Part shown: positions 3,043 through 18,074 of the stretch, in pieces
How positions within the stretch are numbered: the stretch's first letter is position 1
Layout: every line of letters starts with the position of its first letter
Assembly (NCBI GenBank): GCA_002238765.1
Contig: MPMZ01000014.1
Span: 1-54,036 of the forward strand
DNA: 54,036 bases
Reading direction: 5' to 3'
From: Nitrospira sp. bin75
GTDB taxonomy: Bacteria > Nitrospirota > Nitrospiria > Nitrospirales > UBA8639
The notes under the pieces: model-generated
Databases searched by the model: none
What the model was told of the DNA's origin: nothing
What the model saw: only the letters and a program-made list of their open reading frames with translations
Made by a program: the position numbers and the translations under genes

Positions 3043-6000
3043 TCATGCCATTGCCCCGCTTTGATAGTATGGCGACGGCACCGTTGGGTAGGCGCGGAAC
3101 ACGTGCCGGAATACGTCATCGGACTTGGTTGCAACTTCGTCGTCAGAGTAAACGCCGGTGGGCAGGCCGGTCGTTTCGTTATAAAGGAAGTCCCGGATAG
3201 CGACCACAACCGCATCCCGGGTCGTTTCTTTTTCGCGCCATTGGTCGACGCGGAGTTTCTCGGTCTTCAACGTCCGTAGCAGTTCGACGGCGACGTCTTT
3301 GATCCGCTTGATCTCGGCTGCGTTCAGGTCCGGCTTCTTCAGCAAGTCGAAAATCGCCAGTGACTCCTCGTCCAAATTCTCCCGGACCGCGCGCCGTTCC
3401 TCATTGTCCAATTCCTGCGCCAATTTGAGCAGTGCCTCGAACGTCTGTTCGATCGTCATCCGATCCTTTTCGCGGTTGTACTTTGCGACGGTCTCTTCAT
3501 AGTGCTTCTGAAAATCGGCGCGCAGGGGGTTTTGCGCCAGCAGGCGCTGTACCCGCTTCTCCAGAACGTGCCTCAAGTCTTGAACAAGCGAGTTCTTGTT
3601 CTGGTAACGCTGAAATTCTCGCTTCAGTTGCTCAAAGTCGATATGGCTGATGTCGTAAGGTACAGGCATGGGATCGTCGGCCGCGAGTTCAGGCTGCACC
3701 TCTATCGCCTCGTCCACCACCTCGTGTAGCTTGCGGATGATGTCTCTGATGTCGGCCTGCTCACGATCTTGCTGAAGGCTCTTATACACGATGTTGATGG
3801 CGTCGCGGTCCGCCCTATGGGCGTTGACGTCCTTCACGTTGATACAAGCCCTGAATTTCTTGAATGCCTCGCGGCACATCACCTCGAATCGCTTTCGGGT
3901 TTCGTCATTTTCGTTGGCAGCTTCCTTACACGCCACGATGGCGGCGTTGCGCTCGAAGCCGGTCTTCCGGATGACGTCGTCCAGCGATGCTCCTCGCTCA
4001 TCAAGGAAAGCCCGCACGAAGGCAATAGCCTCGGCCAAGTCGACCAGCAGATCTTCATCCGGCTTGGCCGGATCGGTCTCGTCGACGCGGCCAGGCTGCG
4101 TCCCGGCAAAAGTCGCCAGCGCCCTGCGCAGGTGTTTCAGAACGCCGCAGTAATCCACGATCATGCCGTTGTTCTTGCCCTCGTTTACCCGGTTCGCGCG
4201 GGCGATGGCTTGCATCAGGGTGTGGGCCTTGAACGGCTTGTCGAGGTAGAGGGTGGAAAGGCTGGGTACGTCGAAGCCGGTCAACCACATGGCACACACA
4301 ATGGCGATACGGAAGGGGTGTTCTTCCTCTTTGAAGGCCTCGTCCAAATCCATTCGCTGCATGTTGCGGAAACGCGGCTTGCTACGCATCGACTCGGGCA
4401 GGTCCATGCCCTCCTTGATGAGCCTCCGGTGCGGGGTAACGTCCAGATCCCACCCCTGGAACTTCTTCACCTCCCCCTGCTCCTCACTCACCACTACCGC
4501 CACGCGGGTCTCGCGCATCCAGTCGATCTGCCGCTTCAGGTAGATCGACTCCTGCTCGTCGGTTGTCCGTGACGTTTCTGCTTCCAATTCCTTGATACGC
4601 TCGTTCCAGTAGAACCCGATCAGCTTGTGCATCCGCACGCAAGTCAACTTGTCGATACAGACCAGCATCGCCTTGCCGGTTTCCCAGGCCGTCGAGTAGT
4701 GCCGTACGAAGTCCTGCGCAATCTGATCGAGTCGCTTGCCCGCGGTGACGACGTGATAGTCGCGCTTGAGTTCCTGCTCCAGACGTTGCTCCACGTCGAC
4801 GTTATCGGTCTCCCATTCTTCCAGCTTCCCGGCGATACGTTCGTTCAGGTCGCCGATGGCCACCCCCAGCTTGTCGCCGCGTGCGTCGTAGAAGAGCGGC
4901 ACGGTCGCCTTATCCTCCACGGCCCGCTGGAAGTCGTAGGTCGAAACGTACTCGCCGAACATCCGTCGCGTGATCTCGTCTTCCGTGAACAGCGGGGTGC
5001 CGGTGAAGCCGATGTAGCTTGCGTTGGGCAGGGCGTTTCGCATGTTGAGCGCCAACGTGCCGTACTGGGTACGGTGCGCCTCGTCGGTGATGATGATGAC
5101 GTCGTCGCGTTGCGTGTAACTTTCGCCTTCGGCCACTTGCTTGTTGAACTTCTGGATCAGCGAGAAGACGTGCGATTTGTGCTCAGCCAGTAACCGGCGC
5201 AGGTGTTCGCCGCTTGAAGTCCGGCATGGGTCGCGGTCATGGTCCACGACGCCGCAGCCGGCAAACGTCTTGTAAATCTGGGTGTCGAGGTCGTCTCGGT
5301 CAGTGAGAATGAGGAAAGTAAAGTTGCCGCCGAGTTTCCGGTGCACCTTGCGGGTGAATATCACCATCGAGTAACTCTTGCCGGCCCCTTGGGTGTGCCA
5401 GAAGACGCCCAGCTTGCCTTGTCGCGCCTCGCGGTTTCGCACCGCAGCGATGGCCCGGTTCACACCCAGGAACTGGTGATTGCGGGCAATGATTTTCTTC
5501 GGCTCGCCCGACGACTCGTCGAAGAGAATGAAGTTCTCCACAAGATCCATGAAGTTACGCTTGTCGCAGACGCCCTTGAGCAACGTCTCCATGTCCACCA
5601 CGCCGGGTTCTTCTTCGGCCAGCCGCTTCCATTCGTGAAAGTGCTCCCACTTGCTGGTAATGCTGCCGATCTTCGCCTTCTCGCCGTTACCGAACATCAC
5701 CACCGCGTTGTGGTGGAAGACATGGGGAATGGTGTCGCGGTAATCCGAGTAGTTGTCCTCAAAAGCAGTCCTGAGGTCCCGGTGGATGTTCTTGCACTCG
5801 ATGAAGAGCAACGGCAGACCGTTGACAAAGCCGACGACGTCCGCCCGGCGGCGGTAGAGGTCACCTTTGATCCACAACTCGCGGACGCAGAGGAAATCGT
5901 TGTTCTCCGGTGTCTCGAAGTCGAAGACTCGCAACCGCTCCCGTACCGGCTCGCCCTTGTCGTTACGGAAGGTGACCAGTACGCCGTCGCGGATCAGGTC

Positions 6001-6291
6001 GTATTTTTCACGGTTGGCGGTGACGATGGTCTGCGAGGCCACGGTAGCGGTGATCTGTCGCACCGCGTCGTCGTAGGCGTCGTCCGGCAGTCCCGGATTC
6101 AATTCCGCCAATTTCCCGCGTAGCGCGCGCGTCAGCACCACCTCGCGCTCGGACGCGCGTCCAAGCAGGCTCTCCGGCCCGAAGTCCTCGTTGTGATAGG
6201 CGTAGACGGATTTCCAGCCGAGTTGCCGTTCCAGATATTCGGCCGTGGTCTGCTGGACAAGAGTGTCTTCGGTGTAAGGAGCCGGGGTCAT
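3043..6291 (-). CDS. hsdR: Type I restriction endonuclease, motor subunit R
   Basis: At 1082 residues this has normal HsdR length. The N-terminal nuclease region contains RADVVGFVNGLPLLFIECKN (about residues 148-168), with the Asp and Glu-x-Lys of a PD-(D/E)XK site. A superfamily 2 translocase follows, with Walker A HTQGAGKS (about 297-304), ITDEAHR (about 401-407) and FTGTPLF. The C-terminal third is helical and charged and should dock to the methylase core. It forms the restriction complex with HsdM and HsdS, encoded about 7-10 kb upstream on the same strand. It overlaps the preceding AlbA_2 gene by four bases (ATGA at 6288-6291), so those two are co-translated. No break or missing motif is visible. 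Confidence 0.95.
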   Translation of the reverse strand: MTPAPYTEDTLVQQTTAEYLERQLGWKSVYAYHNEDFGPESLLGRASEREVVLTRALRGKLAELNPGLPDDAYDDAVRQITATVASQTIVTANREKYDLIRDGVLVTFRNDKGEPVRERLRVFDFETPENNDFLCVRELWIKGDLYRRRADVVGFVNGLPLLFIECKNIHRDLRTAFEDNYSDYRDTIPHVFHHNAVVMFGNGEKAKIGSITSKWEHFHEWKRLAEEEPGVVDMETLLKGVCDKRNFMDLVENFILFDESSGEPKKIIARNHQFLGVNRAIAAVRNREARQGKLGVFWHTQGAGKSYSMVIFTRKVHRKLGGNFTFLILTDRDDLDTQIYKTFAGCGVVDHDRDPCRTSSGEHLRRLLAEHKSHVFSLIQKFNKQVAEGESYTQRDDVIIITDEAHRTQYGTLALNMRNALPNASYIGFTGTPLFTEDEITRRMFGEYVSTYDFQRAVEDKATVPLFYDARGDKLGVAIGDLNERIAGKLEEWETDNVDVEQRLEQELKRDYHVVTAGKRLDQIAQDFVRHYSTAWETGKAMLVCIDKLTCVRMHKLIGFYWNERIKELEAETSRTTDEQESIYLKRQIDWMRETRVAVVVSEEQGEVKKFQGWDLDVTPHRRLIKEGMDLPESMRSKPRFRNMQRMDLDEAFKEEEHPFRIAIVCAMWLTGFDVPSLSTLYLDKPFKAHTLMQAIARANRVNEGKNNGMIVDYCGVLKHLRRALATFAGTQPGRVDETDPAKPDEDLLVDLAEAIAFVRAFLDERGASLDDVIRKTGFERNAAIVACKEAANENDETRKRFEVMCREAFKKFRACINVKDVNAHRADRDAINIVYKSLQQDREQADIRDIIRKLHEVVDEAIEVQPELAADDPMPVPYDISHIDFEQLKREFQRYQNKNSLVQDLRHVLEKRVQRLLAQNPLRADFQKHYEETVAKYNREKDRMTIEQTFEALLKLAQELDNEERRAVRENLDEESLAIFDLLKKPDLNAAEIKRIKDVAVELLRTLKTEKLRVDQWREKETTRDAVVVAIRDFLYNETTGLPTGVYSDDEVATKSDDVFRHVFRAYPTVPSPYYQSGAMA

Positions 6292-7793
6292 GATGATCTC
6301 CCCTCCAAATTCGCCAACCGTCTCTTGCCGTTTTCCGTGAGTCTGTATTTCTGCAACCGGCTGTTGGGTTTCTCCGGAATCGTGTATTCGATCAACTCGC
6401 CATCCACCAACGAACGAATCATCTTGTTGAGCTGGCCTGAGACAGTACTCTGACCCAAGCCGGTCGAGATGGCTGATTTTGCCATGGGAGCCCGACGAAG
6501 AAGTGCCAGAACTCGTTGCTCAAGACTCTCTGGCTGTGACTCTGGCTGTGACTCTGGCTGTGACTCTGGCTGTGACTCTGGCTGTGACTCTGGCTGTGAC
6601 TCTGGCTGTGACTCTGGCTGTGACTCTGGCTGTGACTCTGGCTGTGACTCTGGCTGTGACCCGGTTTGGTCCCTAACTTGGTCGGCCGGTCGTGGGAAAG
6701 TGGTCGTCACCCAGTGGTCGGAAACGTCAATAACAGGCTCAGCCACCCCGTGTTCACGGCACAGATCGCGAATGCGCCTGATGCCGGAACCGATTCTCTC
6801 TACCGCTTCCATCCGGTGCAGGATGCCGAACAGTAACGGATTGCGTGGAATGCTCTTGGTACCGAGACCCGCTTCGGTCATGCCGGCGGGCAGCCCGCCC
6901 GGGCTGACAATTTCGAGTCGATCCTTAAAGAGGTAAATCTGCACGTTGGCGGTGGAGCGGTAGTCGCGATGAGCCAAAGCGTTGACGACCGCCTCACGAA
7001 CAGCCTCTTCCGGCAGTTCCGGGCGCTCCTCGCGTTTAACGTGCTTGATAATGTATTCCACGTTGATCTTGGAGAGAATCCAGGCCACCACTTCATCAAT
7101 CATCGAGTAGACGTCGCCATGGAAGTCGCGCCGATCAAGGATTCGTACCTTGTCGGTGCCCATGAAGAGAGCGCAAGCGACGTCGGCACTGACGTTGAAT
7201 TTGCGGATATCCTTTGCCAACAGCCAAGCTCCGGCGTGACTCATGCGCCCGTCTTCGCCGATCAGGTGCAGGTTTCCGAGGGCCGTCCCAGGTTCCATGT
7301 CGGTGGGGATTTTCGCGCGTTTCCTGAAAAGGTCCCAGTTTTTCTCGTCGAGATCGGCTTCAAGGGAGAACTTCTCACAGGCGGTTTCATCGAAGTGGAT
7401 CAGCCCCTCCTTGTAGAAGAACTCACGAATTTCCTCCCGTGACATCTGCTGGCTGCTTGATCCCTCACGGATGAAGAACTTGCCCCCGAAAGAGTAGGGC
7501 TTGCTTTGCTGGGCGGGTACTCTCACGCAGAGCACTTTGCCCGCGCTTGTGATCTCCACCGCAATCGGCGGGTCGGCGGAACGGGCGATTGACTGGGCTT
7601 CTGATTTCAGGCGATTGTGGTTGGCAACCCCGCAGACCTCTCCATCATCCGTCACGCCAAGCAGAATCGTCCCGCCGGTCGCGTTGGCAAAAGCGCATAT
7701 CTCACGGCCAAGTCCGGAAGTGCCGGAGCGCTTGAATTCAGTTGTAAAGCCTTCGCCGAGGGCGACGAGATTGGATAGGTCCCCTTGGTTCAC
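6288..7793 (-). CDS. AlbA_2 / GHKL ATP-binding protein with SQPE repeats, linked to hsdR
   Basis: The 501-residue protein starts with a Schlafen-like AlbA_2 domain (EGFTTEFKRSG, then EICAFANATGGTILLGVTD, about residues 14-50), common in putative transcriptional regulators. A RecG-C-like GHKL ATPase segment follows with EEAVREAVVNALAHRDY (about 263-279) and a G-rich SPGGLPAGM. Residues about 379-422 are eleven perfect SQPE repeats, a flexible polar linker. The C-terminus is a winged-helix domain (SAISTGLGQSTVSGQLNKMI). This architecture is often found next to type I restriction genes, and it overlaps hsdR by four bases. A regulatory role for the restriction locus is inference from context. The DNA repeat behind the linker makes length variation likely. 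Confidence 0.85.
   Translation of the reverse strand: MNQGDLSNLVALGEGFTTEFKRSGTSGLGREICAFANATGGTILLGVTDDGEVCGVANHNRLKSEAQSIARSADPPIAVEITSAGKVLCVRVPAQQSKPYSFGGKFFIREGSSSQQMSREEIREFFYKEGLIHFDETACEKFSLEADLDEKNWDLFRKRAKIPTDMEPGTALGNLHLIGEDGRMSHAGAWLLAKDIRKFNVSADVACALFMGTDKVRILDRRDFHGDVYSMIDEVVAWILSKINVEYIIKHVKREERPELPEEAVREAVVNALAHRDYRSTANVQIYLFKDRLEIVSPGGLPAGMTEAGLGTKSIPRNPLLFGILHRMEAVERIGSGIRRIRDLCREHGVAEPVIDVSDHWVTTTFPRPADQVRDQTGSQPESQPESQPESQPESQPESQPESQPESQPESQPESQPESQPESLEQRVLALLRRAPMAKSAISTGLGQSTVSGQLNKMIRSLVDGELIEYTIPEKPNSRLQKYRLTENGKRRLANLEGRSS
6529..6660 (+). repeat. Eleven perfect tandem copies of a 12-bp unit inside the AlbA_2 gene
   Basis: The unit TCTGGCTGTGAC is repeated exactly eleven times with no mismatch. 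Read on the minus strand it encodes Ser-Gln-Pro-Glu each time. A 12-bp unit preserves the reading frame, so slippage would change linker length without breaking the gene. Confidence 0.97.
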
Positions 7794-7988: not shown

Positions 7989-8369
7989 CTATGCCGCCAT
8001 CGTGCGCACGTCGTAGCGCGAGATATGGCGGTCCCTGGTGACAACGATGAGGTCTTCGATTTGGGCTTGCGCGACCAGCATCCGATCGAACGGGTCACCG
8101 TGGTATGGCGGAAGGGTGCCCGCCTGTTCCGCGTGACGAAACGTGAGAGCAAGTGGTGTGAAGCCCTGTTTTTTGATGCTCGCTTCCAGGTTGTCCGGGG
8201 CTTGCAGCTTCCCCAAGGCGTGCTTGACGGCGATCTCCCAACCGCTGATAGAACTGACAAAGACTTCGTTAAACGAATCGGCTATGGCTTCATAGGCACG
8301 TCCGTCCAACCTCTGAGGTTCCGCCATCCACCACAGGAGAGCGTGAGTGTCCAGTAGGAATCGTGCCAC
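7989..8369 (-). CDS. VapC-type PIN-domain toxin
   Basis: This 126-residue PIN protein carries ARFLLDTHALLWWM (first Asp), SISGWEIAVKH (Glu), HGDPFDRMLVAQA (Asp) and VVTRDRHI (Asp), the complete acidic set of the COG3744-like branch. It starts with GTG, whose G is also the last base of the antitoxin stop (TAGTG), so the pair is translationally coupled. Together with the antitoxin it sits between the Dcm-Vsr gene and the AlbA_2 gene, within the stretch of genes that separates hsdS from hsdR. It is expected to cleave RNA when free of its antitoxin. Confidence 0.9.
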   Translation of the reverse strand: MARFLLDTHALLWWMAEPQRLDGRAYEAIADSFNEVFVSSISGWEIAVKHALGKLQAPDNLEASIKKQGFTPLALTFRHAEQAGTLPPYHGDPFDRMLVAQAQIEDLIVVTRDRHISRYDVRTMAA

Positions 8370-8623
8370 TATTCGTCTTCATCCGGGAATATCTTCGAGT
8401 TCCAGAACGAATCGATCACTTCCTGCGGCGTCTCGTCAAAATCCGGAGCGATCCAGATCTGCCCTTTCAACACACCTGATTTGCGCTTGGTCTTCGACTT
8501 ACGATACGGCTCCAGTCGCAGGTAAGGTTCCCCGGCCTTGGCGATCACGATTTCTTCACCTTCCCACGCCAGTTTGCCCAGCTTCGAGAGCTGCGATTTG
8601 GCCTCGTGCATGTTTACTTTCAT
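8369..8623 (-). CDS. Phd-like antitoxin of the third PIN module
   Basis: The 84-residue protein has a Phd-type N-terminus (MKVNMHEAKSQLSKLGKLAW, then EIVIAKAGEPYLRLEPY). A lysine-rich hinge and an acidic toxin-binding tail ending FPDEDE follow. ATG 8623 is preceded by GGGGATC. The stop shares one base with the toxin GTG. Its C-terminal 40 residues are almost identical to the 50-residue protein at 758-910, and the DNA identity between the two extends through the shared segment, so one is a recent partial copy of the other. Autoregulation is suggested by a repeat over its promoter. Confidence 0.88.
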   Translation of the reverse strand: MKVNMHEAKSQLSKLGKLAWEGEEIVIAKAGEPYLRLEPYRKSKTKRKSGVLKGQIWIAPDFDETPQEVIDSFWNSKIFPDEDE

Positions 8624-8835: not shown

Positions 8836-10344
8836 TCAACTATTTTCTTCAAGTTTATGCCGTATTCTTAGCAAGCACTGACCGGGGGCCTTGGTCAATC
8901 GACATTCCCAAATGCGTATAACTTTCCAACCCTGTTGCCTGAGGGAACGGTTAGCACGACGATCCCTGGCTTTGGTTTTCTCAATTTTATCTCGCCACGC
9001 TTTGAAGTTCGTCTTGGGTGTGAGGTTCCTACAGTCGTGGCCGTGCCAAAAACATCCGTCAACAAAGACGGCAACTTTCATCTTGGGCCAGACGAAATCC
9101 GGTCGTCCGGGAAGCGGTTGGTGTCTGCGCCAACCCGTTAAACCTTCCTTACGTAGCAAATACGCGAGTTGCATCTCGGTTGTTTGGTTGCCGGTGCTAA
9201 GTACACGGGACATTAAATCGCCGCGGTTTAAACCGCCAAACGTCGTGCGCTCCTGCTGAGCATTGCCCGGCCACCGACCCATTGTTGTGCTAGACCGAAG
9301 TGTTTTGAAGGATTCCTTGGCTACAGCCTCAGCAAAGTCACACGGAAGAGCATTACCGACGATGTTACACGCATATTCCATATAGGGCGTATCGAGTTTG
9401 TAATCTGAGGGAAAGGTCTGCAACAATGCCGCCTCTCTCACAGAGATCGTCCGCTCCATTTCGGGATGTCCGAATCGCCCCTTGCTCAAGGTGGTGCATC
9501 CACCAGTGATCGTCGGTGCGACTTCGTCCCACGCCATACGCCCATACACGTTTCTGAAGCCCCTATATGTACCTTTGTGACATTCAGGTCGGAGATCCTC
9601 GGGAATCTTGATCCACGTTGCACCAGGTTTCGCATGTTTTAGCCGAAGTTTGTTCATCTCCGACAGAGAACGGACGAGATGCCAGTTTGAACGCTCGAAA
9701 GCCGAGTGTTCCCTCGCCTCTGCCAACAGAATCGGTTCGGCCAAGCTGCCAATCGTATCCTTAACGGTTCGCCAGGGAGCAAAGCCTTTCTTCCCATCCT
9801 TGGAATGAGTGGGTAGGGGGATGGGTATTTGGCAACCAAGACCTCCAAGGACGACGAGTCTGCGGCGATTTTGCGGGACGCCATAATCCGCAACTTGAAG
9901 GACTTCCATCGTTACCGTGTAGCCGAGTCGCTCAATTCGTTCACGAAATTCGTTCAACAGCGGCTTGCCCCGCCCGGCGAGACCAGGGACGTTCTCCATC
10001 ATGACTGCCTTCGGTCTGATCTCTTCGACTAACCGTGCCATCTCTCGGACCAGATCGTTCCTTAAATCATAGCGCCTATATTTTGACGTAAGGCTGGTAA
10101 ACCCTTGGCATGGTGGACAGCCAGCGAGCAGATCTATCACTCGACCGGGCGCCAGTGCCTTCAGATCACCGCCCTTGATTGTTCGGATATCTTGCTTGTA
10201 CGCTCTGACCTCGGGATGGTTAGCGGTATACGTGGCGAAGGCATGTTTTTCGATCTCGACCGCAGCCAAGACCGTGAATCCCGCTCGCTTGAGACCGACG
10301 GTGAGGGCTCCTCCCCCTGCGAACAAATCGATGGCGACAGGCAT
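8836..10344 (-). CDS. Fusion of cytosine-C5 DNA methyltransferase and Vsr mismatch endonuclease
   Basis: This 502-residue protein joins two enzymes. Residues 1-345 are a C5 methyltransferase with DLFAGGGALTVGL (motif I), GCPPCQG with catalytic Cys79, MENVP (116-120) and QNRRR (158-162); the target-recognition region lies at about 190-300. Residues about 378-485 are a very-short-patch-repair endonuclease: GRPDFV with the catalytic Asp416, DGCFWHGHDC (429-438) with active-site and zinc-type residues, and IWECRL. In the classic Dcm/Vsr case the nuclease repairs T:G mismatches formed by deamination of 5-methylcytosine; here both are on one chain. ATG 10344 begins the methylase fold and lies seven bases after the upstream GHKL stop. 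A longer start at 10413 would overlap that gene by about 60 bases. Confidence 0.93.
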   Translation of the reverse strand: MPVAIDLFAGGGALTVGLKRAGFTVLAAVEIEKHAFATYTANHPEVRAYKQDIRTIKGGDLKALAPGRVIDLLAGCPPCQGFTSLTSKYRRYDLRNDLVREMARLVEEIRPKAVMMENVPGLAGRGKPLLNEFRERIERLGYTVTMEVLQVADYGVPQNRRRLVVLGGLGCQIPIPLPTHSKDGKKGFAPWRTVKDTIGSLAEPILLAEAREHSAFERSNWHLVRSLSEMNKLRLKHAKPGATWIKIPEDLRPECHKGTYRGFRNVYGRMAWDEVAPTITGGCTTLSKGRFGHPEMERTISVREAALLQTFPSDYKLDTPYMEYACNIVGNALPCDFAEAVAKESFKTLRSSTTMGRWPGNAQQERTTFGGLNRGDLMSRVLSTGNQTTEMQLAYLLRKEGLTGWRRHQPLPGRPDFVWPKMKVAVFVDGCFWHGHDCRNLTPKTNFKAWRDKIEKTKARDRRANRSLRQQGWKVIRIWECRLTKAPGQCLLRIRHKLEENS

Positions 10345-10351
10345 GTTTCTG

Positions 10352-12487
10352 TCAGTCTGCTGGCTCAATGACGTTCTTCTTCTGTTTTTCAGCCTCGGCC
10401 AAGAAGTCTTCATGCATCTTTTTAGTTCTGAGAAGAAAAGTCTTCCAATTTATATGCGTTAGCGTTCCATTTTCGCGAAATGAGTCGAATGAAACTTCTT
10501 GGGCACCGGTTAAAGATAGGTCGTCGCATACCAAGGTGATATGAAATGATCGAAAGATATCCCGGAATTCTTTATTCCCCGGTTCGTCTAGAAATTTATT
10601 CATCTGATTATTATAGGTAATGATCCTGTCCATTTCATTATTTGTCAGTTTATGCATCGGTCTCTTGATTTCGATGAGTTGTAGTCCGTTGTCTTGGCTC
10701 GATAGCACGAAATCAGGCCGCTTCCCTGTCTCTGAGAAGTCCTCCAAGCTAATCTTCTGACCGGTGTTCTTCTCGTAAAATTTCTCAAACTCTTTCTTAA
10801 GTGTGCTGAAAGCTTGGTTCGCTGTAATTGGCGCCCACTGTGGATCGATCAACCATGGAGCGTACTTAATTAACTCCTGAAGCTTCGGTTCGGCCGTTTT
10901 CTGGTCGTCCTTCAAATCTTGAACCCTCTCGATAACTTTGAGCCTATCTTCTGCAATTCTTCCGAAAGAAGATAATTCCGCCAATCGGGCAGTTCTCAGT
11001 ATCCCACTGATCACCGCCATGGGTGTATTCTCCGCATCGGCTGCTTCCCTTAGTTTCTTGTCGAGCGTGATATGCGGCGCCAAGGTGAGGCTCAGTTGCA
11101 CCATCGGCTCAACGACTTCGATGTCATCTACTTCACCAGCGCGAATTGTTTGACCAAGCAATCTTGCCAGTTCCCTGGCCGTTTTCCTGATGGCTTCCTG
11201 TCCATCGGCTGGAAATTCCCTTACTATTTGCTCCTCAATTTTGCCGACTTCGGCGAATCGCTCCCATGTTTTCTTCCTCATAGGATCGCGTGCCAAATAT
11301 CCAATCTTGTGTATGATTTTCCGACCCCATTCCTGAAACTTCTGACCTAAATCATGGGACCACAAGATGTCTCGTCTGTCCGTCTGAATCAAATCTTCAT
11401 ATTCATCTAACCAGTCAGCATGCAGCGCACCCACCAAGTAGGACCGAATGCTATGTTCTCCGTGGAAGCCGGCACCACGGTTGAAAACCGCTGTCTGCCC
11501 CGCGATTTTGCCTCTGCAGTAAATTCGGACACCGGCCATCAAGTCGTCCTTGTATGGATTCTTGGCATATGCCGCCCAACCGGTAATTGGGTAAAAAAGC
11601 CCATCGTGATGAAAACCTGCTCCAAACTCCGTTATCGTTTCTCCGGCCGGACCGACCGCACAGTATCCGGTATCGTCTTTCACTGAGAGATTCGGCCCTG
11701 TAGGACCGTTGAGTGTTATCTTCGAGTTGTCCATGGTCTCGACAGAGAACGACTCAAGGATGGTTTCATACTCCGGCGCTGTCTTCATCTTTGTCGTGTC
11801 GCGCGTTTTAATTATCCAGCTCCCCGTTGGCAGGCCGAAGCGTTGAGATAACTGTCGTGAGAAGGTTGAGTGCGTGGAGACACGGCGGTACGCGAAGCGT
11901 TTCAGAATGACGGTTGTGCCAGAATTTGGCCGTAGCGTGTTGTCCTTAGAGCCTGTTCCTGGCTCGTACTCGAACTCTGTATCTTTCAACATATCCTCTC
12001 GATTCAAGATCAAGTGTGCGGTCAGGTACCCAGTATCCGGTTTCCCATCGGGTCCATCGCGCGTGACCTTTTCTCCGCCTGATGTGAGTATCTCTATTAC
12101 CTCGCATATGCCAAATGGCGCCAACTTACCGACACCTTTACGTCCCATGACTTTTCTGTTGAACTTTGGAGAAGTATCGCCCCTTCTGGGACGATCATCA
12201 GTTCTTCGTTCGGCACCAACTACAAGGTAGAAATTGTTCACTTCATCTGGCGTCATCCCGATGCCGTTGTCAGTCACCTTGATTTCAAAATTCTTATCTG
12301 CGATGACTCCTCCTGCCTTCGAGGCAAGATATTCCCCCATAGGAGCTTCGATCATGACTTCTGTCGCGTCAGCGTCATAGCTGTTGGAGACGAGTTCCGC
12401 GATAACGGCTGATACTTTGTCGTAAAGCTTTACACCAAGCTTGTCGATTGTTAGCCGGGAAATTCTCATTTTGTATTTGTTTGTCAT
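10352..12487 (-). CDS. MutL/MORC-like GHKL ATPase with apparent C-terminal PD-(D/E)XK nuclease
   Basis: The 711-residue protein has a complete Bergerat ATP-binding fold: AELVSNSYDAD (Glu31, Asn35), VTDNGIGM (72-78) and GRKGVGKLA (115-123). Such MutL/MORC-type ATPases are known beside DNA methylases and Vsr nucleases. The middle region is probably the transducer and helical linker. Near the C-terminus, RPDFVLSS followed by LIEIKRP (about 588-606) fits the Asp...Glu-x-Lys pattern of a PD-(D/E)XK nuclease. It is directly followed by the Dcm-Vsr fusion. A plausible reading, not proven, is an ATP-driven clamp that senses methylation or mismatch state and cuts or recruits the Vsr activity. MTNKYKMRIS is taken as the start; the ribosome binding site is weak. 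Confidence 0.85.
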   Translation of the reverse strand: MTNKYKMRISRLTIDKLGVKLYDKVSAVIAELVSNSYDADATEVMIEAPMGEYLASKAGGVIADKNFEIKVTDNGIGMTPDEVNNFYLVVGAERRTDDRPRRGDTSPKFNRKVMGRKGVGKLAPFGICEVIEILTSGGEKVTRDGPDGKPDTGYLTAHLILNREDMLKDTEFEYEPGTGSKDNTLRPNSGTTVILKRFAYRRVSTHSTFSRQLSQRFGLPTGSWIIKTRDTTKMKTAPEYETILESFSVETMDNSKITLNGPTGPNLSVKDDTGYCAVGPAGETITEFGAGFHHDGLFYPITGWAAYAKNPYKDDLMAGVRIYCRGKIAGQTAVFNRGAGFHGEHSIRSYLVGALHADWLDEYEDLIQTDRRDILWSHDLGQKFQEWGRKIIHKIGYLARDPMRKKTWERFAEVGKIEEQIVREFPADGQEAIRKTARELARLLGQTIRAGEVDDIEVVEPMVQLSLTLAPHITLDKKLREAADAENTPMAVISGILRTARLAELSSFGRIAEDRLKVIERVQDLKDDQKTAEPKLQELIKYAPWLIDPQWAPITANQAFSTLKKEFEKFYEKNTGQKISLEDFSETGKRPDFVLSSQDNGLQLIEIKRPMHKLTNNEMDRIITYNNQMNKFLDEPGNKEFRDIFRSFHITLVCDDLSLTGAQEVSFDSFRENGTLTHINWKTFLLRTKKMHEDFLAEAEKQKKNVIEPAD

Positions 12488-12770: not shown

Positions 12771-13973
12771 TCAAACCATCACCGCTCCATTCATCAGGCG
12801 TGGCAAGAGCAGGTCGCGGGCTTGGGCGAGCTGCTGATTGTGTAGTGCCAAGTTTCGCAACTGATTGCATGCCGGTGCCACAACATCGCTGAACAAACTC
12901 AACAGTGTTGGTGAGGGCCTCTTGAACTGCGATCTAAGAAGGTATTTCCAGTCCATTCTTGGCATCTTTGAGCCTTCTCGGACGGTCTTTGATGCCAAAG
13001 CTACAAACTCATCACTCGAGAGAAGGAACAGTACGTAATAGTAGAGGTAATCTTCTGAGGGACGAATAACAATCGCATCAGATGACGCGATGCCGTCCAC
13101 GAGAGCGAATCCAACTTTGTGAAAGTAGGGCCGGATCTTGCCGAACAGGATGTCCCCTTCAGCGAACTTGAATTTGTTGCTATCGACTTCACTGGCCGTT
13201 CCCCATTCATTCAGCGTGACCGCACGCTTTGGAATGTGCTCAAGTCCTATATATGCAGTGTCAGGTGACACATCCTTTGGGTTAATTGATTCCCGAATAT
13301 CTGTGCAGAGTTCGGAAAGCGGTTTACTCTCCCACCCTTCCGGTACGCCGTCTTTGACCTTGACGTGCTCGTGGCCGGGGAAGCGGAGGTGGACGAACCA
13401 CTGCTTGTAGATCAGCCGTGCCGCCTGTTCCAGCAACTGAATTCGTCGCCGGTTGTTCTCGATCAGGTCGTCGTAGGCGGAGAGGATGGAGGCGATGCGC
13501 TGCTGGATAGCGAGACCAGGGAGGTGCAATTCGAAGTCTGGAAACCTAGTCAGTGGAATACGGTCTACCGTCGCGCCACTGATGATATTCGACTTGACGA
13601 CAGCGCGCCAGGCGGGTGTCAAGAAGTAGTAGTGCAAGAAGCGAGGGTTAACCTTCGTCTGGTCAGGACGAATCAGAGCCATGCGTCTACCGAGACATCC
13701 CCTGAATCCATCAGGAATAAGCGCATAACGGTGTAACGTCGCTTCATAGGAGAATACTATGTCGTTTTTCCACGGAACGACGCGTTTTATCCATTTTGGG
13801 TAGTCCTCCTCGGATACGTGGCGGATTTCCGACAAATCTAAAGTGCCTCGCGGAGTGACATTCTTGATGCCCAGAAAAATAGGCCCCTCGTCAGCGCCCT
13901 TTGGAGTTGCATGGGGACCGTCGTAGATACCGAGAGCTATGTCTTTGATTGGCCTAATCTGGAGGTTACTCAT
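12771..13973 (-). CDS. hsdS: Type I restriction-modification specificity subunit S
   Basis: The 400-residue protein has the usual two target-recognition domains separated by conserved helices. The first domain spans about residues 1-150. The central helical spacer reads LAIQQRIASILSAYDDLIEN with RRRIQLLEQAARLIYKQWF (about 153-195). The second domain runs from about 210 to 360, and a C-terminal helix ends ARDLLLPRLMNGAV. Each domain reads half of a bipartite DNA site. It overlaps hsdM by four bases (ATGA at 13970-13973). The domains are complete, with no sign of truncation. The recognition sequence cannot be read from the protein alone. Confidence 0.95.
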   Translation of the reverse strand: MSNLQIRPIKDIALGIYDGPHATPKGADEGPIFLGIKNVTPRGTLDLSEIRHVSEEDYPKWIKRVVPWKNDIVFSYEATLHRYALIPDGFRGCLGRRMALIRPDQTKVNPRFLHYYFLTPAWRAVVKSNIISGATVDRIPLTRFPDFELHLPGLAIQQRIASILSAYDDLIENNRRRIQLLEQAARLIYKQWFVHLRFPGHEHVKVKDGVPEGWESKPLSELCTDIRESINPKDVSPDTAYIGLEHIPKRAVTLNEWGTASEVDSNKFKFAEGDILFGKIRPYFHKVGFALVDGIASSDAIVIRPSEDYLYYYVLFLLSSDEFVALASKTVREGSKMPRMDWKYLLRSQFKRPSPTLLSLFSDVVAPACNQLRNLALHNQQLAQARDLLLPRLMNGAVMV

Positions 13974-16153
13974 ATCCCCAATTCCTCGAAATTCTTCTTG
14001 ATCGTTGCCGCCAATTCCACTGCCTCGGTGTTGAGGTCTTCCAGTTCGACGTGGATCTCGCGTAGGGCTTCCTCGAAGTCGAAGTCTTCGTCCTCTTCTT
14101 CGGGGGCGACGCCCACGTAGCGGCCAGGGGTCAGGCTCCAGTCGTTGGCTTTGATCTCGGTATGGTCCACCAGCTTGACCAGTCCCTCCACGTCGCGCAG
14201 CTTCGCCTTGGGGAAGCGCTCGGTGAGCCAGTGGGCTTGGCGCCAGAAATAGCGGACCTTTCTGAGTTGTCCCCAGGCATGTACCGGCGACGACTCATCC
14301 AGCTCCGTGAGATTCTGGCGGGCTTCGTCCACGGTTTTGCGGGCGCGCGTGACGTCGCGGGCGTTCCAGGCGTCGCTGGATTTGGCGCCGCACTCCTTCT
14401 CGCAGGTCTCGATCAGGCGTGTGGCGAGCTTGTAGAGGAGGTCGGTCTGCTTGATGAGATCGTGGCTGGTTTCGGCCAATGGTGCGAGGCTGCCAACTGT
14501 CTGCAGAAGCTTCTTTACCGAATCGACCCCATAGTTGGCAGCGGGTTCGGCAACTTGCAGATATTCGTGAGTGGATACCGGTGCTTCAGATCGCAACGTT
14601 TCTTTGAAGGCTTTAATGCCGGAGTTGAAGGCGAGCAGGGCAGCGTCCAGTTCCTTTTGAGTTTCAGTGGGAGCGTCGTCCGAGCCGAGTGTCCTAAGAA
14701 AAGGGGCCAGCACGTCCCGGAGGCTGTTGAGCGCGGCGAGGAAATCCGGTAGCGGTTTGACCGCTTCGCCGTGTTCATTCTTGGTGCTGAAGCAGGCGTT
14801 GCCTTCATCGAGGGTGCGGGTGCAGTAGTCGGACACCAGGCCGAGATAGCGCCCGGTCTCACCTCGGTAGAGCCAGACGATAGCCAGCAGGTTCTGCTGC
14901 TGCTCGGGGCTGAAGTCGTAGATTTTGCGTGTGACCTTGCGGTAGACGTTACGCGCATCGATCATCAGTACCTTGTCACGGTGTTCCTTTGGCTTGTTGC
15001 GGTTGAGAAACCACAGTTCGCAGGGCACGGTGCGGGTGTAGAAGAAGTTGGAGCGGATGGCGATCATCACGTACACGTCGCCGGTTTCTACCAGCTTCTG
15101 CCGTACCTTGGCCTCGGAACCACCGGCGCTGGATGCCTGCGACGACATGACGAAGCCCTCGCGCCCTGTTTCGCTCAGGTAACTGTAGAAATAGCTGATC
15201 CAAACGTAATTGCCGTTGCTGACTTTGTCTTTCTTGTTGACGCCGGGCAGGCCGAAGGGCAGACGCGGGTCGGTCTTGACCTTGTCGGCGTCGATCTCGT
15301 CCACGTTGAATGGCGGATTGGCCATGACGTAGTCGGCTTTGCCGAGCAGTTCGTGGGGGTCTTCGTAGTAGGTGATCGCTTGCCGGATGTCGCCTTCGAG
15401 GCCGTGTACCGCCAGGTTCATCTTGGCCAAGCGGATGGTGGTGGCGTTTTTCTCCAGGCCGCGGAAGGTGAGTTGCTCGGTTGGGTTCTGGCCGTGCTCC
15501 TCCACGGTCCGGGCGCTCTGCACGAACATGCCGCCGGACCCACAGGCCGGGTCGAGTACCGTACCGCGTTCGGGGTCGAGCACGTGGGCGATCAACGAGA
15601 CGAGCGAGACGGGCGTGAAGAACTCGCCGGCATCGTGGGCCTTCTGGTCCGCGAACTGTGTGAGGAAGTATTCGTAGATGCGACCGAAGACGTCGCCGGA
15701 GACTCGCTTCAACTCGTCGGGGTTGAGCGTGCGCAGGAGTTGGCCGAGGACGTCGTTGTCCAGTTCCTGGTATTCGCTCTTGGGGAGGATGCCGCGTAGG
15801 CCGTCGTAGTCCGCCTCGATGGACTCCATCGCCGCGATGATGGCCTTGGCGCGGTCCGTGCCGTCGGGCAGGGCGACCAGTTGGTCGAACTGGGCCTCGG
15901 GACGCAGGAAGATGGCACTTTGCTGGGAGAAGTCTTCCTTGGTGCGTGCCCGCCTCTTGCCGCCGCGAGAGGGCAGGTTCGCTTCAATCTTGTCTTTCAC
16001 TCCCAGGTAGCGGCTGTAGGCGTGGCGCAGGAAGACCAGCCCCATCACCGGCAGGAAGTATTCGTTGCTGGCGTAGTTGGAGTTGGCGCGCAGGGTGTCG
16101 GCCGCACTCCAGAGACGCCGTTCAATGGCTTCGATGTGTTCGAGTTGGGACAA
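13970..16153 (-). CDS. hsdM: Type I restriction-modification adenine methylase subunit M
   Basis: This 727-residue N6-adenine methylase has the HsdM N-terminal helical domain, the conserved GEFFTPVSLVSLIA entry (177-190), SAM motif VLDPACGSGGMF (199-210) and catalytic NPPF (279-282). A long C-terminal region (about 480-727) is rich in charged helices and should contact HsdS. It is longer than the classic enzyme of about 520 residues but matches the extended HsdM subgroup. The start MSQLEHIEAIERRLW is the natural N-terminus. It is the first gene of the hsdM-hsdS unit and overlaps hsdS by four bases. With HsdS it methylates the host site; with HsdR it completes the restriction enzyme. Confidence 0.95.
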   Translation of the reverse strand: MSQLEHIEAIERRLWSAADTLRANSNYASNEYFLPVMGLVFLRHAYSRYLGVKDKIEANLPSRGGKRRARTKEDFSQQSAIFLRPEAQFDQLVALPDGTDRAKAIIAAMESIEADYDGLRGILPKSEYQELDNDVLGQLLRTLNPDELKRVSGDVFGRIYEYFLTQFADQKAHDAGEFFTPVSLVSLIAHVLDPERGTVLDPACGSGGMFVQSARTVEEHGQNPTEQLTFRGLEKNATTIRLAKMNLAVHGLEGDIRQAITYYEDPHELLGKADYVMANPPFNVDEIDADKVKTDPRLPFGLPGVNKKDKVSNGNYVWISYFYSYLSETGREGFVMSSQASSAGGSEAKVRQKLVETGDVYVMIAIRSNFFYTRTVPCELWFLNRNKPKEHRDKVLMIDARNVYRKVTRKIYDFSPEQQQNLLAIVWLYRGETGRYLGLVSDYCTRTLDEGNACFSTKNEHGEAVKPLPDFLAALNSLRDVLAPFLRTLGSDDAPTETQKELDAALLAFNSGIKAFKETLRSEAPVSTHEYLQVAEPAANYGVDSVKKLLQTVGSLAPLAETSHDLIKQTDLLYKLATRLIETCEKECGAKSSDAWNARDVTRARKTVDEARQNLTELDESSPVHAWGQLRKVRYFWRQAHWLTERFPKAKLRDVEGLVKLVDHTEIKANDWSLTPGRYVGVAPEEEDEDFDFEEALREIHVELEDLNTEAVELAATIKKNFEELGI

Positions 16154-16890: not shown

Positions 16891-16907
16891 CGATGAGGGT
16901 TGCTGAC

Positions 16908-18074
16908 ATGTTTTTTCCCCGCTTGGCGGCAGGCAACAGACTCCGTGTCCTCACGCTGTGTGGGATTCTGCTCCTGCCCGGCTGCTCGCCCGAAGATCCC
17001 TACGTGCCCCCGGACCTGCTCTATCTCTTCGCCAGTTATGACGTCGGGAAAAACCCAACCGCCATTCAGGCCGGGGACTTCAACGAGGACGGCTTTTCGG
17101 ACCTGTTGACCAGCAACATCTCGGCGAATTCCCTGTCCCTCCTGTTCGGAAACGGGGACGGGAGCTTCCAGGCGCAAGTCTCCATTCGGGTGTGCAAGGA
17201 ACCCCGGAATTTGGCCGTCCGGGATTTCAACGGCGATCGGCATGACGACCTGGCCATCGCGTGTTCCGGGAGCAATCAGGTGGCGATTTTCAAGGGGCAG
17301 GCGGGCGGGACGTTCGAGAAAGACGGGCTGTATCCCGTGCACCGGACGCCGGTCTCCATCGCCAGCGGCGATTTCAACAGTGACCGACACCTGGATTTGG
17401 TCGTGGCCCTGCGAAACGACAAGCTGCAACTGTTGTTCGGTAACGGGCTCGGGAAATTTCAGATCGGGCCGCTCTATGAATATGGGGATACCCCCACCTC
17501 GGTGACCACCGCGGATTTCAACCAGGACGGGCATCTGGATTTGGCGGTCACGAACGGCGGGCCGATGAGCAACGCCGTCTCGATCTGGTTGGGGCAGGGA
17601 GACGGCAACTTTCTCCAGCCCACCGATTACCGGACGGGCAAGCGGCCGTTATCCGTCTCCTGCGCCGATTTCAACAACGACGGCGTCTGGGATCTCCTGG
17701 TGGTGAACGGGCAAATGAACACCATCACCGTCTTTTTGGGCAACGGTGACGGCACCTTTCAGGACGGCATCGACTCAGGCGGCGACGCCGGACCCATGCA
17801 TGGCTTGGCCCAGGATTTTGACGGGGACGATATTTCGGACGCGGCGGTCGTGAACATTCAATCGGGCAGCCTCTCGGTCCTGTTCGGGAAAGGCGACGGC
17901 TCATTTTATTATCCTCCGCGTCAATATCAGACGCCCCGTGGGCCGTTTGCCTTGACCTCGTTGACCGTCGCCCATGGCCGGGACGAAGAACCCGGTCTGG
18001 CGGTTGTCAACAATGCGGAAAATAGTGTATCGATTTTTCTGCATCATGGGTTAAAATTCAGGCAGCAGAGCTAG
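16908..18074 (+). CDS. FG-GAP/VCBS repeat lipoprotein
   Basis: The product is about 388 residues with a lipoprotein signal (LTLCGILLLPGC; Cys acylation expected at about residue 26), so it should be anchored in a membrane on the periplasmic side. The remainder is a chain of repeats of the form DFNxDGxxDLxVxN...SVLFGNGDGSFQ, at least six of them. This is the FG-GAP/VCBS pattern, which folds as a beta-propeller and often binds calcium through the DxNxDGxxD loops. ATG 16908 is preferred over 16893 because GAGGG lies eight bases before it. The binding partner is unknown; adhesion or surface scaffolding is only a family-level guess. It is divergent from the gene at 16300. Confidence 0.82.
   Translation: MFFPRLAAGNRLRVLTLCGILLLPGCSPEDPYVPPDLLYLFASYDVGKNPTAIQAGDFNEDGFSDLLTSNISANSLSLLFGNGDGSFQAQVSIRVCKEPRNLAVRDFNGDRHDDLAIACSGSNQVAIFKGQAGGTFEKDGLYPVHRTPVSIASGDFNSDRHLDLVVALRNDKLQLLFGNGLGKFQIGPLYEYGDTPTSVTTADFNQDGHLDLAVTNGGPMSNAVSIWLGQGDGNFLQPTDYRTGKRPLSVSCADFNNDGVWDLLVVNGQMNTITVFLGNGDGTFQDGIDSGGDAGPMHGLAQDFDGDDISDAAVVNIQSGSLSVLFGKGDGSFYYPPRQYQTPRGPFALTSLTVAHGRDEEPGLAVVNNAENSVSIFLHHGLKFRQQS

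Follow-up and report, generated by a model that had tools for sequence, protein, structure and literature searches.

A GHKL ATPase-nuclease gene beside a one-chain cytosine methyltransferase-Vsr fusion, a predicted restriction-modification cassette within a type I operon of Nitrospira

In Escherichia coli, the gene of the C5-cytosine methylase Dcm lies beside, and overlaps, that of the very-short-patch mismatch endonuclease Vsr. Restriction enzymes of the BbrUII/HgiDII family (NF050001) are likewise accompanied by C5 methylases, often with a Vsr gene in the same cassette, and M.HgiDII has been characterised as a C5 methylase acting on GTCGAC, as cited in PMC5867850. The available text of Iyer 2008 (PMC2292703) describes paraMORC3 proteins, which combine a GHKL ATPase, an S5 domain and a C-terminal nuclease of the restriction-endonuclease fold with an E-D-ExK signature; these families are found beside Dcm and Vsr genes, and such GHKL-nuclease proteins were predicted to act in restriction-modification. 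VcSduA, a type I-D Shedu protein, joins an N-terminal GHKL ATPase to a C-terminal nuclease of the Shedu family in a single polypeptide; it restricts phages, and this defence requires the residues of both the ATPase and the nuclease (PMC12137116). Here we describe a related two-gene cassette in a 54,036-nucleotide stretch of Nitrospira sp. bin75 (the window: contig MPMZ01000014.1 of assembly GCA_002238765.1, contig 6 of the 115 in a 3.04-Mb genome, G000). An original prediction, made from the sequence of this stretch alone, had proposed that the two genes encode a GHKL ATPase with a nuclease motif and a Dcm-Vsr fusion, forming a compact modification/repair or restriction system.

The window shares with the BbrUII/HgiDII cassettes a full-length homology of the ATPase-nuclease and an adjacent C5 methylase, but its ATPase falls in a distant clade to which the HgiDII site is not transferable, and its methylase is fused to Vsr. 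The domain layout and the gene neighbourhood are those of the paraMORC3 group, whereas the available text of Iyer 2008 (PMC2292703) describes no one-chain Dcm-Vsr, and the window cassette is embedded in a type I operon. VcSduA functions on its own, as a single gene, whereas the window ATPase neighbours a methylase-Vsr protein. Compared with the E. coli dcm-vsr pair, the window has a single polypeptide, linked to a putative restriction subunit. The combination of ATPase, nuclease, methylase and Vsr foreseen in the original prediction is real, but less novel than implied, since its layout is known as paraMORC3 and its relative VcSduA has been tested. Overall, the kind of system is known; what is unusual is the one-chain methylase-Vsr and the location within another defence operon.

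The Bergerat motifs noted for the ATPase in the original prediction are present (ELVSNSYDAD at residues 31-40, DNGIGM at 73-78 and GRKGVGK at 115-121), and their core residues N35, D38, D73, G75, G77, K117, G118 and G120 are invariant among the 55 homologues of alignment A2. The AlphaFold2 (AF2) model calculated from this alignment has a mean predicted local distance difference test (pLDDT) score of 87.4. The best solved-structure match of its residues 8-403 was the MORC3 ATPase-CW structure (Z = 22.9, root-mean-square deviation 3.2 over 294 residues), with Hsp90 and MutL ranking behind MORC, and the alignment of these residues to the MORC3 ATPase supports an S5-type domain after the GHKL domain. 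The MORC-specific S5 motif is GhXhhpXXRhl in the available text of Iyer 2008 (PMC2292703); the window protein reads G319-VRIYCRG-K327-IA, in which G319, R325 and K327 are conserved. MORC proper was rejected because the protein departs from this signature, and the Lys in the position of the Arg fits paraMORC. In addition, NF050001 matched residues 5-705 of the protein on positions 1-651 of the 659 of the model (E = 1.3e-63, 215.6 bits), as well as all 55 homologues, and PADLOC labelled the protein REase_II. No relatives of the ATPase were found in the viral contigs searched.

The C-terminal domain carries RPDF at residues 590-593 and IEIK at 605-608, where D592 and E606 do not vary across the 55 homologues and K608 is conserved in at least 90% of them. 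Among 36 homologues, this domain was matched by SduA_C in 27 (best E = 2.2e-7), HSDR_N_2 in 19, HSDR_N in 8 and NucS_C in 4, all PD-(D/E)XK families; PDDEXK_4 and VRR_NUC also gave matches. In the AF2 model, the predicted order is helix 533-542, strand 552-556, helix 560-575, strands 593-596 and 601-607, helix 616-634 and strand 647-653, and the strands predicted to bear D592 and E606/K608 are adjacent. Full-length fold searches returned GHKL proteins at residues 8-403, and a profile of the C-terminal domain gave weak matches to solved structures, including NucS (E = 0.48) and Shedu (E = 0.77). A PD-(D/E)XK nuclease at the C terminus is well supported by the profile matches in the homologues and the invariance of D592 and E606, which bear out the nuclease motif of the original prediction. 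With its GHKL motifs, S5-type domain and C-terminal D...ExK nuclease assigned by profile and motif, the protein has the paraMORC3, or GHKL-type Shedu, architecture.

The second gene starts 7 bp after the first (gap 10345-10351); both lie on the minus strand, and the coordinates and spacing first given for the pair were confirmed. The start of the second gene was placed at the ATG of MPVAID (10344); an alternative longer open reading frame (ORF) from 10413 would overlap the ATPase gene. The Dcm motifs I, IV (PCQ), VI (ENV), VIII, IX and X are intact, as are the Vsr motifs PGRPDF, GCFWHGHDC and IWEC. The Vsr half was recognised by PF03852 (E = 1e-17, 63.9 bits against a cut-off of 27) and by TIGR00632 (99.7 bits against 97.85), and a profile of 10 Vsr relatives matched E. 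coli Vsr (1cw0) with E = 3e-35. A single-sequence structure prediction of the fusion was unusable (pLDDT 37). With both Vsr profiles above cut-off, the Dcm and Vsr motifs intact and the fusion recurring in a second genome, the one-chain Dcm-Vsr stands as predicted.

That second genome, G013, belongs to a different assembly of the same genus, and its fusion (locus L051, 6093-7622) adjoins the same ATPase and an hsdS. The two fusion proteins are 91% identical. When the window is compared with G013, the ratio of nonsynonymous to synonymous substitution rates (dN/dS) is 0.12 in the ATPase, 0.15 in the Dcm half and 0.125 in the Vsr half. As judged from these comparisons, the fusion is under purifying selection.

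Conversely, dcm and vsr are separate in a Candidatus Binatia genome (locus L066) with an 81% identical ATPase: the dcm stop and the vsr start overlap as ATGA, and the Dcm is about 30 residues longer. The same ATGA overlap was seen in the congeneric genomes G012 and G009, beside ATPases only about 25% identical. This overlap in the unfused relatives resembles that of the E. coli genes. The Dcm tree groups the window with G013 (support 99/96) and places L066 as their sister, and the simplest history is therefore a single fusion event within the Nitrospirales lineage; unlike the Dcm tree, the ATPase tree joins the window weakly with L066 among the three closest rows (88, not starred). The codon of Met355, aligned with the start of the separate vsr genes, now lies in the Dcm reading frame. 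The fusion is real and derived, and it probably formed when overlapping dcm and vsr were brought into one frame, the Dcm tail being lost and the old vsr start left behind as Met355. Beyond the two Nitrospirales genomes, every relative either keeps the genes apart or has them in the opposite order, as would be expected if a stop codon had been lost through a sequencing or annotation error in one assembly. However, two separately assembled genomes carry the fusion, with low dN/dS in both halves, and the junction is a shortened Dcm tail rather than a one-base error. The artefact was rejected because of the second genome, and its probability is negligible.

Vsr was found in 109 of the 395 genomes of the phylum, and only four Vsr-containing frames longer than 450 residues were listed there, in the window, G013, G395 and G248. 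In the latter two, Vsr precedes a different Dcm, and no such ATPase was found in the stretch fetched. No fusion in the Dcm-Vsr order was found beyond the window and G013 in the 395 genomes and in 79 related loci, which had been collected with the ATPase profile. Fused genes occur among these loci only in G013 and, in the reverse order, in the Dehalococcoidia locus L078. Among the matches listed, plasmid records covering both halves mostly hold two annotated genes, and a few are unannotated there. A literature search of open-access papers found no described Dcm-Vsr fusion. As far as these sequences indicate, methylase-Vsr fusion is uncommon and arose at least twice, in two orders, and probably three times.

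Further details were noted on the reverse order. L078 encodes a 592-residue Vsr-Dcm fusion (10008-11783) directly after a GHKL-nuclease gene, and in its near relatives L076 and L119 the genes are not fused. Vsr-Dcm fusions of 549 residues, with a methylase of another subfamily, lie at L144 (879-2525) and L145 (4565-6211), in two genomes of the same phylum.

Over the 79 loci, Dcm lies within 2 kb of the ATPase in 56 and is its same-strand neighbour within 350 bp in 46, and Vsr lies within 2.5 kb in 27. The gene order varies (ATPase-Dcm-Vsr, Dcm-ATPase-Vsr or Vsr-Dcm-ATPase). Recurrence of the gene pair in other genomes, which had been proposed as a check, was thus found for the ATPase-methylase neighbourhood. 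In the clade of 49-55% ATPase identity, Dcm is directly downstream wherever the sequence suffices (L067-L071, L073, L074 and L087), and the Dcm identity (58-64%) tracks that of the ATPase. The closest ATPase clade is mostly ATPase-Dcm with no Vsr, and Vsr therefore appears to be an optional addition to the methylase rather than a core component for the ATPase. In addition, the window Vsr shares 72-76% identity with the Vsr proteins of G009 and G012, although the ATPases of these genomes are only about 25% identical; Vsr and the ATPase are thus not an obligate evolutionary pair, and the comparison suggests that vsr genes have been exchanged between related cassettes.

Other arrangements were observed during this survey. 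Two GHKL-nuclease genes lie on opposite strands around Dcm in L091, L094, L096 and L117 (and in L093 and L095), some with Vsr. A second GHKL restriction-type locus is present in the window's own genome (L146, 7256-13614, on contig 22 of G000), where a Vsr on the opposite strand, a 537-residue Dcm, an HATPase_c_3 GHKL protein and a Z1-domain protein are all encoded separately.

Because Dcm accompanies the ATPase in 56 of the 79 loci, and Vsr also in 27, the cassette is likely to be a type II-like restriction-modification system with built-in mutation (very-short-patch) repair; the adjacency of restriction and modification genes typical of type II systems is seen in the 7-bp gap. The methyltransferase half would mark host copies of a cytosine-containing motif, and the GHKL-Shedu protein would be the restriction subunit. 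By analogy with MORC, Hsp90 and MutL, ATP binding may close a dimer clamp on DNA, and closure would license the PD-(D/E)XK domain to cut unmarked DNA, such as that of phages or plasmids. The tethered Vsr half may nick T:G mismatches arising from deaminated methylated cytosine, so that the mutagenic cost of the methylase would be repaired in step with its production.

Several findings weigh against this reading. The window protein itself scores 24.8 bits with SduA_C (E = 2.8e-5), below the Pfam gathering score of 27, and, since the profile matches to solved structures were weak, the nuclease call comes from Pfam profiles and conserved motifs. The NF050001 score is below the curated equivalog cut-off of 550 bits, outside equivalog membership, and in the ATPase tree the clade lies a long way from those loci that score above it. 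For these two reasons the HgiDII site GTCGAC cannot be assumed for the window, and transfer of this specificity was rejected. In 23 of the 79 loci, most of them from Nocardia or truncated, no Dcm lies within 2 kb, so that the ATPase-nuclease may also be able to act where no methylase is linked to it. Finally, the sequences show homology, domain content, conserved motifs, gene linkage, purifying selection and the unfused sister locus, and from these the enzymatic activities, the motif recognised and the ATP-dependent switching are inferred.

Many of the Nocardia loci without Dcm are intact, VcSduA with the same architecture acts as a single gene (PMC12137116), and stand-alone paraMORC3 genes are also noted in the available text of Iyer 2008 (PMC2292703). 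These observations would fit a stand-alone Shedu-type (type I-D) defence in which the GHKL-nuclease senses phage DNA independently of methylation and the Dcm-Vsr gene is merely adjacent. This explanation is unlikely, since Dcm is immediately downstream in every sufficiently intact locus of the 49-55% clade, with Dcm and ATPase identities that track each other, and since proteins of the BbrUII/HgiDII family are annotated as restriction enzymes of methylase-linked systems. Quite unlikely, too, is a more novel reading, in which the tethered chain has a new combined activity: the methylase domain would guide Vsr to the motif that the methylase recognises, one enzyme marking, repairing and possibly nicking improperly methylated sites, and the cassette would form a functional unit with the type I hsd genes among which it repeatedly lies.

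The coupling in the original prediction, in which ATP-driven loading serves T:G repair, fared worse. In this account the MutL-like ATPase would load Vsr, and the pair would be primarily a T:G repair machine. MutL binds and stimulates Vsr in Neisseria gonorrhoeae in an ATP-enhanced manner, and E. coli MutL does likewise (PMC6116569); Vsr is also near the ATPase in the 27 loci counted above. However, the close ATPase relatives mostly have Dcm without Vsr, the ATPase has an intact nuclease motif of its own, and the window Vsr is 72-76% identical to proteins paired with remote ATPases. Coupled repair, for which we found no direct support, is therefore very improbable, whereas the C-terminal nuclease and the recurrent ATPase-methylase neighbourhood are the parts of the original prediction that held.

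Cytosine methylation in restriction systems has a mutational cost, for which Vsr pays. The natural one-chain form and its close unfused sister provide a clean pair for testing whether physical coupling makes repair better or keeps Vsr from causing damage; in Caulobacter, cells that lose a C5 methylase mount a DNA-damage response, for which a Vsr-like protein is required (PMC12907096). GHKL-Shedu restriction subunits occur widely, and their biochemistry has been little studied; the cassette makes methylation a simple handle on the licensing of such a nuclease.

The cassette interrupts a type I operon between its hsdS and hsdR genes, in the minus-strand order hsdM, hsdS, ATPase, methylase-Vsr, Phd-like/PIN, AlbA_2 protein and hsdR (Table 1).

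Table 1. Positions of the cassette, its domains and the neighbouring genes in the window
Feature	Position	Strand	Evidence
GHKL ATPase-nuclease, 711 aa, predicted restriction subunit (R)	10352..12487	-	HATPase_c_3 E 3e-16; NF050001; AF2 model
GHKL + S5-type ATPase module, residues 8-403	11279..12466	-	MORC3 structure match; invariant residues
Predicted PD-(D/E)XK (Shedu-like) nuclease domain, residues 533-707	10367..10891	-	Pfam profiles in homologues; adjacent catalytic strands in model
Predicted nuclease active-site stretch RPDF...LIEIK, residues 590-608	10664..10720	-	Residue conservation
One-chain C5 methyltransferase-Vsr fusion, 502 aa (M + V)	8836..10344	-	Domain profiles; same fusion in G013
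C5-cytosine methyltransferase domain	9310..10332	-	PF00145 residues 5-345, E 1.4e-57; motifs
Fusion junction, kept former vsr start codon (Met355)	9280..9282	-	Aligned with separate vsr ATG in L066, L054, L052
Vsr mismatch-endonuclease domain	8902..9228	-	PF03852 373-439, TIGR00632 374-481; 1cw0 profile match
hsdM, surrounding type I system	13970..16153	-	N6_Mtase E 2e-76 + HsdM_N
hsdS, surrounding type I system	12771..13973	-	Methylase_S E 3e-17
Phd-like antitoxin, between cassette and hsdR	8369..8623	-	PhdYeFM_antitox E 0.0016, weak
PIN toxin, between cassette and hsdR	7989..8369	-	PIN E 5e-16
SLFN/AlbA_2 + HATPase_c_4 protein, between cassette and hsdR	6288..7793	-	PF04326 E 6e-20, PF13749 E 2e-21
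hsdR, surrounding type I system	3043..6291	-	HSDR_N, SWI2_SNF2; TIGR00348 482 bits

The cassette follows hsdS in the window, G013, the Binatia genome, G009, G012 and the gammaproteobacterial locus L072, whose contig ends within the ATPase region. In the window, G013, the Binatia genome and G009, hsdR is downstream of the cassette, and in L072 it is upstream; no hsdR was found in the stretch of G012 examined. The HsdS proteins of G009 and L072 have an N-terminal nucleotidyltransferase domain. Type I genes thus flank the cassette in at least two settings besides that of the window. Either the ATPase clade or the hsd organisation sets G009/G012 and L072 apart from the window, so that there appear to be about three separate settings.

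Upstream of the GHKL cassette, L052 (3228-5333) and L072 (6215-7717) encode HsdS-like proteins that begin with a nucleotidyltransferase (Polbeta) domain. The L052 protein also has a DUF559 domain and is preceded by a nucleotidyltransferase-partner gene.

Within the AlbA_2 gene of the window, 11 perfect copies of the 12-bp repeat CTCTGGCTGTGA (6528-6660) encode a Ser-Gln-Pro-Glu run; the 12-bp unit keeps the frame, and the repeat length is therefore free to change without a frameshift. Adjoining the defence operon, a plus-strand ORF (16893-18074) has a lipoprotein-like start and, by eye, FG-GAP-like repeats.

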